DNA of 64,000 nt from Candidatus Rokuibacteriota bacterium (GTDB taxonomy: Bacteria > Methylomirabilota > Methylomirabilia > Rokubacteriales > CSP1-6), in the NCBI GenBank assembly GCA_016866775.1, contig VGLJ01000001.1, forward strand, positions 1 through 64,000, in the 5' to 3' direction. Below the pieces are notes generated by a model that searched no databases, was not told the origin of the DNA, and saw only the letters and a list, made by a program, of their open reading frames with translations. Made by a program: the position numbers and the translations under genes. The first letter of the stretch is position 1. Each line of letters starts with the position of its first letter. Below are positions 23,885 to 27,166 of this stretch, in pieces.

Positions 23885-24688
23885 ATGAGCGCGGTGCGCG
23901 CCGCCGACGGCGTGCGCCTCTACGCGGGGACCGAGCCCGCTCACCTGTTCGTGAGCCGCGACTCCGGCGAGACGTGGGAGGAGCTGCCGTCGCTCCGCGC
24001 CGTGCCGAGCGTCGAGAAGTGGATGTTCCCGGGCCCGCCGCACGTCGCGCACGTCAAGCACATCACGTTCGATCCGCGCACGGCCGACACGATCGATGCG
24101 AGCGTCGAGGTCGGCGCCGGCCTGAAGAGCACGGACGGCGGCAAGAGCTGGACGCAGATGAGCGGCTTCTTCGAGGACGTGCACCGGATGGTCCTGACCG
24201 CGTCACGCCCCGACGACGTGTTCATGGGCAACGGGATCGGGATCTATCACAGCGCGGATGCCGGCGCGACGTGGGAGCAGCTCACCGATCGCTCCGCGCG
24301 CATCGCCTATCCGGATCAGGTCATCGTGCATCCGCAGAAGCCCGACACGGTCTTCATCGCCGGCGCGATCTGCGGACCGGGCGACTGGCGGAAGACCAAG
24401 ACCGCCGACGCGCGGATCGCGCGCAGCCGCGATGCGGGCAAGCACTGGCAGTACCTCGAAGGCGGGCTCCCGTCGCACATCCACGGGAACATCGAAGGCT
24501 TCGCGCTGAACACGTGGCCGGGCGGCTCGGCCCTTTTCGCCGGCACCACGGACGGCGACGTCTTTCTGAGCCAGAACGAAGGCGAGACCTGGTCGACGAT
24601 CGCGCGGCGCATCGGCGCGATCTCCAAGGGTGGCCATCACCTCGCGCTGCCGATCGACGAGGCCGCCCTCGAGACCGCGGCCGGCTAG
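23885..24688 (+). CDS. BNR/sialidase-like repeat protein, apparently 5'-truncated
   Basis: A beta-propeller of the WD40/YVTN/BNR-repeat type. Asp-box repeats are visible: SRDSGETWEEL, STDGGKSWTQM, SADAGATWEQL, SRDAGKHWQYL and SQNEGETWSTI. The first usable start is ATG 23885 (267 residues), but coding character and another Asp-box (SDDGGRTWQRE) continue upstream in frame to about 23711 without any ATG, GTG or TTG. So the gene appears to have lost roughly its first 40-60 codons and start. No signal peptide is visible. Function unknown; the family is often called a glycosyl hydrolase without evidence. It ends just before a large inverted repeat with a terminator. Confidence 0.65.
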   Translation: MSAVRAADGVRLYAGTEPAHLFVSRDSGETWEELPSLRAVPSVEKWMFPGPPHVAHVKHITFDPRTADTIDASVEVGAGLKSTDGGKSWTQMSGFFEDVHRMVLTASRPDDVFMGNGIGIYHSADAGATWEQLTDRSARIAYPDQVIVHPQKPDTVFIAGAICGPGDWRKTKTADARIARSRDAGKHWQYLEGGLPSHIHGNIEGFALNTWPGGSALFAGTTDGDVFLSQNEGETWSTIARRIGAISKGGHHLALPIDEAALETAAG

Positions 24689-24694
24689 CGACCC

Positions 24695-24824
24695 GGAGCG
24701 GGTCGGCGGCGGGTGGACGCGGGGGCCCGCCGCCTTGGTGCTCAAAAAGGCGAGCCTGACGGCTCGCCTTTTCTGCGCAATCGGCTGGACGGGCCCCCGC
24801 GTCCACCCGCCGCCGACCGGCTCC
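24695..24824. repeat. 35-nt-arm inverted repeat enclosing a terminator
   Basis: The arm 24695-24729 and the arm 24790-24824 are reverse complements, with 29 consecutive perfect pairs (24701-24729 with 24790-24818) and then one mismatch and five more pairs. The 60-base interior holds a terminator hairpin. It is placed between convergent genes. No ORF or flanking direct repeat is evident. Confidence 0.8.
24744..24772. terminator. Bidirectional rho-independent terminator
   Basis: AAAAAGGCGAGCC (24744-24756) and GGCTCGCCTTTT (24761-24772) form a perfect stem with a TGAC loop, with A5 on one side and T4 on the other. It works in both directions for the convergent BNR gene and the Mo-hydroxylase gene. 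Confidence 0.85.
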
Positions 24825-24847: not shown

Positions 24848-27166
24848 TCAGCGGAGCCGAGCGGATTCGATCAATGCGCGGACGCGCTGCGGTGTCAGCA
24901 CGGGGTCGCGGATGTCCAGGCGGCCTTCGAACGCGTCGTCCACCGCGTTCGCGATGACCGCGACCGGGGAGCACGTCGGGCCCTCGCCCGCGCCGCGCAC
25001 GCCGAGCGGGTTGTGATCGGTCGCGAAGACCAGGTGCTCGGTCACGACGTCCGGGACGTCGTCGGCGCGCGGGATCGGATAGTCCATCAACGTTCCGGTG
25101 AGCAGTTGCCCTGTGTCGTCGTAGACGACGTGCTCGCCGAGCGACACACCGAGCCCCTGCAGGAATCCGCCCATCACCTGGCCGTCCACGATCGCCGGGT
25201 GAAGCTGACGCCCGCAGTCGTGGACCATGACGTACTTCACCACCGACACCACGCCGGTTTCCGGATCGACCTCGACGACCGCGACGTGCACGCCGCTCGC
25301 CCACGTCACCGTCGGCAGCGCGTAGAAGGACGTCTCCCACAGCCCGGGGCCGCCGAGATCCACGAGCGACCGATCCCGTAACGCCGCGCGCGCGACGCGC
25401 GCGAGCGGTACCGCGCGCATCGGCGCGCCCGTCACGAACGCCTGGCCGTGCTCGATGCGCACGTCCTGCTCGTCGCACTCGAGCAATCGCGCGGCCACGC
25501 GACACGCTTTGCGCTTCACCGCGCCGGCGGCGAGCGCGACCGCGTTGCCCGTGTTCACCGCCACGCGGCTCGCGCCCGTGCCGTAGCCGTACGGCACGAG
25601 CGTGGTGTCGCCGCCGCGCACGCGGATGTCGTCGAAGCGCGCGCCGAGATACTCCGCGCACACCTGCGCGAACACCGTCTCGTGCCCCTGCCCCGACGCC
25701 GACACGCCGATCGACACCGCGACCTGGCCCTGAGCGTCGACCTTCACCGACGCCCACTCGCCCGGGCTCGGACTTCCGCCCGCCTCGACGTACGCGGCGA
25801 TGCCGACGCCGACGTGACGCCCCTGGCGACGAAGCTCCGCCTGCCGCTTGCGCCAGCCGTCGTAGTCCGCCAGCTCGAGCGCGCGGCGAAGCTCGAGCGG
25901 ATAGTCGCCGCCGTCGTAGCGAATGGGCACGCCGTCGCGATAGACGAGGTGCGGCGCGTACGGCATCTCGTCGGGCGACACGAGGTTCTTGAAGCGGACC
26001 TCAGCAGGATCCATCCCGATACGGCGCGCGAGACGATCGAGCAGCCGCTCGATGACGAAGACCGCCTCCGGCCGGCCCGCGCCGCGATACGGAGAGCTCG
26101 CCACCTTGTTCGTCATCACCGACACCGCTTCGGCGCGGAGCGCGGGGACCCGGTACTGCGACGGCAGGTGGTTGATCGTGTTGCTCGGCTCGCTGATCGA
26201 GAAGTAGTGATACGCCCCGACGTCCTTCACCATCCGCACGTCGAGCCCGAGCACGCGGCCGTCGCGCGTGGCGGCAAGCCGCGCCTCGTGCCGCTGCTCG
26301 CGCGCGTGGTGCGAGCTCTGCATGAACTCCGTGCGCGTCTGGATCCACTTCACGGGACGACGGACGTGATACGCGAGCACCGGGACGAGGACGTCTTCCG
26401 GATACACCGCGATCTTCGGGCCGAAGCCTCCGCCGGTGTCCGGAACGAGCACTCGCACGCGCTCGACGGACCAGCCGAGAGACGCCGCCACCGCGTCGCG
26501 AAGGTTGAACGGGTTCTGGTGCCCCGCCCACACGGTGAGGATCTCTGTCTCGGCGTCGAACGCCGCGCACACCGCCCGCGGCTCGATGGGCATCGACGTC
26601 ACGCGCACGTGCGCGAGCCGCTCCTCCACCACCACGTCGGCCTCGGCGAACGCCTTGTCGACGTCGCCGAACGCCGCCCGCACGCGCCCGACGACGTTGC
26701 TGTGTCCGTCGTGCACGCGCGGACCGTCGTCGCGCATCCCGACCTCCGCGTCGACGACCGCGGGCCACGGCTCGTACTCCACGGTGGCCGCCGACGCCGC
26801 GTCGACTGCGCGGGCCCGGTCCGGCGCGAGCACCGCGGCGATCGCTTCGCCGACGTGCCGCACTTCACCACGCGCGAGGACGTGCTGGGGCCGCGGGGAA
26901 TCGAGGACGACGTACGGGTTCGTCGTCTCCGCGCCACGGACGGGCAACGGCATCGCGAGCTCGGGGAGATCGCCCGCCACGAAGGCCATCACGCCGGGCA
27001 GCGCGCGGGCCGCGCTCAGGTCGACCCGGTGCACGCGCGCGCGTGCGTGAGTCGACCGCACGAGCGTGAGATGCAGGGGGTCCGGAAGCCGGATGTCGTC
27101 GACGAACCGTCCGCGCCCGACGAGGAGCCGCTCGTCCTCCTTGCGCCGCGGCGACTGGCCGATCAC
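24848..27166 (-). CDS. Xanthine dehydrogenase/CoxL-family molybdopterin-binding subunit (solitary)
   Basis: A 772-residue large subunit of the molybdenum-hydroxylase family. GRGRFVDDIRLPDPLHLTLVRSTHARARV opens domain 1. DTGGGFGPKIAVYPEDVL and SPYRGAGRPEAVFVIERLLDRLA are Mo-cofactor contacts, the latter like the AYRGAGR of form-II CoxL rather than the AYRCSFR of true CO dehydrogenase. GVRGAGEGPTCSPVAVIANAV carries the catalytic Glu. The start is GTG 27166. No FAD or 2Fe-2S subunit is adjacent, so those must be encoded elsewhere. It is cotranscribed behind a nitroreductase and a multi-rhodanese protein. A CGGGGC/GCCCCG hairpin follows the stop. Confidence 0.85.
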   Translation of the reverse strand: MIGQSPRRKEDERLLVGRGRFVDDIRLPDPLHLTLVRSTHARARVHRVDLSAARALPGVMAFVAGDLPELAMPLPVRGAETTNPYVVLDSPRPQHVLARGEVRHVGEAIAAVLAPDRARAVDAASAATVEYEPWPAVVDAEVGMRDDGPRVHDGHSNVVGRVRAAFGDVDKAFAEADVVVEERLAHVRVTSMPIEPRAVCAAFDAETEILTVWAGHQNPFNLRDAVAASLGWSVERVRVLVPDTGGGFGPKIAVYPEDVLVPVLAYHVRRPVKWIQTRTEFMQSSHHAREQRHEARLAATRDGRVLGLDVRMVKDVGAYHYFSISEPSNTINHLPSQYRVPALRAEAVSVMTNKVASSPYRGAGRPEAVFVIERLLDRLARRIGMDPAEVRFKNLVSPDEMPYAPHLVYRDGVPIRYDGGDYPLELRRALELADYDGWRKRQAELRRQGRHVGVGIAAYVEAGGSPSPGEWASVKVDAQGQVAVSIGVSASGQGHETVFAQVCAEYLGARFDDIRVRGGDTTLVPYGYGTGASRVAVNTGNAVALAAGAVKRKACRVAARLLECDEQDVRIEHGQAFVTGAPMRAVPLARVARAALRDRSLVDLGGPGLWETSFYALPTVTWASGVHVAVVEVDPETGVVSVVKYVMVHDCGRQLHPAIVDGQVMGGFLQGLGVSLGEHVVYDDTGQLLTGTLMDYPIPRADDVPDVVTEHLVFATDHNPLGVRGAGEGPTCSPVAVIANAVDDAFEGRLDIRDPVLTPQRVRALIESARLR

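Follow-up and report, generated by a model that had tools for sequence, protein, structure and literature searches.

The 130-base inverted repeat at positions 24695-24824 of the window, the whole 64-kb stretch of DNA analyzed here, belongs to a genome-wide class of long-armed hairpins. The original prediction was right that it is not an ordinary terminator. Judging from the sequences, each pair of arms in this class appears to have been formed, or formed anew, where it now lies. As a tentative reading, which we would place a little short of an even chance, the arms may have been written there when DNA synthesis folded back (template switching) at a hairpin-forming core and copied one flank. 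If so, the genome would represent a natural record of fold-back synthesis, with more than 20 independent events whose arm lengths, ages and decay could be measured, and the role proposed for template switching in the creation of long perfect hairpins (PMC8794818) would become directly testable in a bacterium.

The hairpin occupies the 159 bp that separate two convergent genes, with the following arrangement.

23885-24688, forward strand: upstream gene with BNR/sortilin-like beta-propeller repeats, 6 nt separating its stop codon from the left arm
24695-24729, forward strand: 35-nt left outer arm, rich in G and 89% GC
24730-24789, no strand assigned: core, 60 nt between the arms, single copy in the genome
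24745-24772, no strand assigned: inner perfect 12-bp hairpin with a TGAC loop, A5 before it and T4 at its end
24790-24824, forward strand: right outer arm, which repeats the left arm in reverse complement except for a single mismatch
24848-27166, reverse strand: convergent gene of the molybdopterin-binding xanthine/aldehyde dehydrogenase family, 23 nt separating the right arm from its stop codon

The inverted repeat proved correct to the base as first described, with 35-nt arms that are 97% complementary, 29 consecutive perfect pairs and a sole mismatch at the sixth pair counted from the outside. Equally, the inner perfect hairpin with its A5 and T4 flanks is present as stated, its halves at 24745-24756 and 24761-24772 pairing over 12 bp across a 4-nt loop. 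Folded as RNA, the 130 bases reach -126.6 kcal/mol, where 200 shuffled versions give -69.9 +/- 4.1 (z = -13.8), and they form the longest near-perfect inverted repeat in the window; the structure is far beyond chance. An Rfam search of the window returned no family at gathering score, the only match below threshold being a microRNA hairpin model far under its cut-off, and a search for tRNA and tmRNA returned none.

Lying between convergent genes with A and T flanks, the inner hairpin looks most simply like a short bidirectional intrinsic terminator, from which the locus nevertheless differs in its long outer arms and in a T run of only four. The GC-rich stem expected of an intrinsic terminator is present, followed by T4, and the hairpin is absent from the terminator scan list because that scan needs a T run of at least five. 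With only four T, the inner hairpin may be a weak terminator. The finished hairpin would most likely still stop transcripts from both sides and shield their 3' ends, the stable outer stem helping to stop the polymerase or to protect the ends.

Following the suggestion that the 130 bases be searched for further copies, we found them to be single copy by sequence in the 5.13-Mb, 97.5% complete genome, which judging by its relatives is probably that of a Rokubacteriales-type Methylomirabilota: searches against this genome and 60 relatives gave short partial matches only, and the arms have no second occurrence in the sampled sequence. The original prediction had held that a single-copy hairpin conserved at orthologous loci as part of a terminator would speak against a special element; single copy it is, while the conservation was not seen, no long-armed hairpin lying near the homologues of the neighboring gene. 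With 53% identity at best, these homologues are too remote for the intergenic stretch to be aligned, and the genomes compared all come from outside the genus. Similarly, about 0.5 Mb of loci from relatives contained no long-armed hairpin, an absence that is not decisive, as only about three would be expected at the density of this genome. A Dehalococcoidia contig (L046:2584-2655) carries a 72-nt hairpin of 29 perfect pairs with no separate core, probably a long terminator.

The class itself emerged from a systematic scan of 2.4 Mb, just under half of the genome, the remainder being covered by core searches alone. Inverted repeats with a span of up to 400 were scored as length minus 4 per mismatch; 15 near-perfect repeats, including one truncated where a contig ends, scored at least 22 and all others at most 19, while an order-4 Markov simulation of equal size peaked at 20, with none reaching 22. 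Long-armed hairpins are thus a mode separate from the background, at a density of about 6 per Mb as estimated from these 15. Searches with three cores added members to the scan hits, yielding 22 clean elements, a sample that is not unbiased, with spans of 88-193 bp, arms of 30-48 nt and loops of 28-101 nt. Decayed members were also recovered, at C15:68781-68840 and on C100.

Nearly all cores (21 of 22) fall into five multi-copy families, represented in the clean set by three (A), three (B), four (C), two (D) and nine (E) members. Identity within families is about 72-96%, mostly 92-96% for types A to C and about 72-84% for type E, and the alignments have sharp edges, similarity being lost no more than a few to about a dozen bases beyond the core. 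The arms of copies that share a core are as unlike as those of copies with different cores (likeness of 0.61 versus 0.61, 0.55 versus 0.58 and 0.58 versus 0.54, moving outward from the core), yet the two arms of one element are mismatched at only 23 of 873 pairs (2.6%) across the 22 elements; the arms therefore cannot have come down as an old legacy of each core family. No template for them was apparent elsewhere in the 2.4 Mb, the longest exact matches averaging 15.2 nt compared with 14.2 nt for shuffled arms. In composition, the arms are 84% GC, G-rich when read inward and unlike their flanks, with a G content in that direction of 54% versus 34% for native sequence after stop codons, and GGTGGG is found in the inner arm of 10 of the 22 elements.

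Two elements, at ilvD and at a transaldolase gene, were singled out as their arms overlap the end of the gene, by only 3-6 nt. In the ilvD element, the perfect arm begins with six bases that comprise the last glycine codon and the stop codon; the stop is at the same residue in all 18 relatives with a readable end, and the glycine is shared by 16. The perfect stretch of the transaldolase element opens with the three bases of the stop codon, and in 17 of 18 relatives the protein ends at that residue too. Conserved gene ends inside the arms are most simply explained if the gene-side arm is the original sequence and the far arm its inverted copy.

Such an outcome is what fold-back copying would produce. 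DNA synthesis would fold back at the hairpin core, one flank would be copied, or the opposite flank rewritten, as reverse complement by template switching, and the resulting perfect palindrome would then decay through point mutation. At 24695-24824 the seed would be a core that looks like the ordinary bidirectional terminator of two convergent genes. Since this core is single copy, the arms do not require a mobile core, and the lack of copies would be explained because any hairpin can seed fold-back copying. The process would need no transposase, would build perfect arms out of local sequence in a single event, and would permit inversion of the loop. A possible case of the latter is an element with arms of about 43 nt that is found at two contig ends, the end of C88 (L191:1460-1549) and the start of C5 (L192:1-90), with the core reading in the same orientation from both sides, which could mean that the core is inverted in part of the population or that the assembler erred.

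Template switching that creates perfect stems and inverts loops is known from bacteria, and has been proposed to enrich 5'-G pairs in stems (PMC8794818); the G-rich 5' arms of the class match this proposal. The likeness to template-switch hairpins (Monttinen and Loytynoja 2022, PMC8794818) and to quasipalindrome-associated mutation (PMC7202029) would extend to perfect reverse-complement arms arising in a single event, loop inversions and the proposed 5'-G enrichment of stems. The present set differs in comprising more than 20 cases with arms of 30-48 nt in a single genome, most of them enclosing cores that are conserved and dispersed, and in that the switching event is deduced from sequence rather than observed. 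Several features count against fold-back copying: the G-richness would be odd for plain flank copies, the recurrence of GGTGGG hints that the element itself may contribute some of the arm, an E2 acyltransferase linker (below) exceeds those of relatives by nearly the length of a whole element, and switching would have to be very frequent, nearly every core copy being armed. Among the relatives searched, none showed a site that is empty or carries a single arm. The spread of cores A to E and their near-universal arms are left unexplained by fold-back copying.

The main rival is a family of MITE-like elements with diversifying ends, where core and both arms insert together and the terminal repeats diversify fast while staying matched in each copy, which we hold to be rather unlikely. 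Dispersed multi-copy cores with sharp edges speak for it, as do the shared GGTGGG motif of the inner arm and the decayed copies on C15 and C100, which look as old insertions would. So do two long-armed hairpins that lie in frame inside genes, one at L062:11964-12063 in the E2 acyltransferase linker between the lipoyl and binding domains, and one at L120:3999-4132 in the gamma-glutamyltranspeptidase (GGT) linker before the autocleavage threonine. The E2 linker exceeds those of three relatives by 31 amino acids, a net 93 nt that is close to the whole 100-nt element and not to core plus one arm, whereas for the GGT linker, of 51 amino acids against 18, 30 and 33 in relatives, a 93-nt in-frame addition made up of the core and a single arm would fit better than the whole 134 nt, in favor of fold-back copying; neither comparison is firm, as both linkers are of low complexity. 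Against MITE-like insertion, the arms are unrelated even between nearly identical cores, with no shared terminal repeats, the core at 24695-24824 is single copy, and conserved gene ends lie inside arms. Nor was there a consistent target-site duplication across the 22 elements, a sign for which the original prediction had proposed to look: 6-bp direct repeats occur at four of them (control mean 1.0), some being overlaps of the arms themselves, and the exact, nearly palindromic AAGCTC repeat at the transaldolase element stands alone. Of the idea that the hairpin is MITE-like, it is therefore the architecture that holds, recurring genome-wide around cores that are mostly dispersed and multi-copy, while this copy is unique and duplications are inconsistent. 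The other idea, a palindromic recombination site, found no backing at 24695-24824, where nothing points to one.

Rickettsia palindromic elements and other bacterial MITEs (PMC10969869) are likewise palindromic, about 100-190 bp long, dispersed and sometimes in frame inside genes; here the arms differ from copy to copy, target-site duplications are not consistent, and a search limited to the Y1_Tnp family yielded no transposase. REP/BIME repeats mobilized by RAYT transposases are also dispersed extragenic palindromes, REPs being 20-40 bp with conserved stems (PMC2817692, PMC3733652), whereas the 97.5% complete genome studied here has no Y1 (RAYT) transposase gene. Many perfect inverted repeats have been described inside genes of Nematomorpha mitochondria (PMC6649704), in other organisms and, going by the abstract, with no mention of a shared core between the arms.

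An alternative in which the core is mobile and the arms are local would be a class of small mobile DNA that, each time it inserts, becomes bordered by a copy of the target flank in inverted rather than direct orientation, giving each copy its own perfect palindromic arms around a conserved core. We consider this improbable. If the arms are made during insertion, transposition would here leave the target copied in inverted form, which to our knowledge is the case in no described family.

Selection on RNA, producing an unusually long bidirectional terminator or a stabilizer of mRNA 3' ends, is similarly doubtful as the origin of the arms. The location between convergent genes, close to both stop codons, the terminator-like inner hairpin and the very stable fold are congruent with such a role, and several other members of the class also adjoin stop codons. 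However, under such selection G-U pairs should be acceptable on the sense strand, and the arm mismatches on the core-sense strand comprise 10 G-U and 9 A-C; with no such wobble bias across the class, there is no sign of arm upkeep through RNA. The members inside the E2 and GGT reading frames, the short T run and the lack of such a hairpin near homologues in relatives likewise speak against this explanation. Finally, false palindromes made by the assembler, or another sequencing artefact, are very improbable, for although the C88/C5 element at two contig ends would suit them, cores are shared at unrelated loci, in-frame copies lie inside intact genes, arm decay is graded and members occupy the interior of long contigs.

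Returning to the cores, types B and E were not found in the 60 related genomes, one weak match excepted, and core A matched there only through a generic small hairpin. In viral contigs core A gave no match, and core C gave three exact 18-mer matches, none extending into core or arms. The ends of core type E recall what we take to be REP-like motifs. Elements of this type also occur as inverted pairs 0.3-1 kb apart, at C53:5800-6390 (L184), C72:12450-13620 (L183/L185) and C86:5000-5450 (L188), with cores whose closest counterpart, along part of the sequence, is the other member of the pair, and with arms that differ. A type B element lies in an open frame at L112:18721-18853, at the apparent junction of putative livM and livG, genes for a branched-chain amino acid transporter. 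Separately, a 3'-end element recurs after stop codons across the family, consisting of a CGGAGGGGG hairpin, then GCCTCCCCC, AGGAAGGA and a GCGGGCGAAGCCCGC hairpin; it matches nothing in Rfam and is seen at L003 (C89 of this genome) near 1460-1600, and just after the ilvD or transaldolase stops at L231, L241, L252 and L264. Parts of core types A to D resemble the 3' half of this element.
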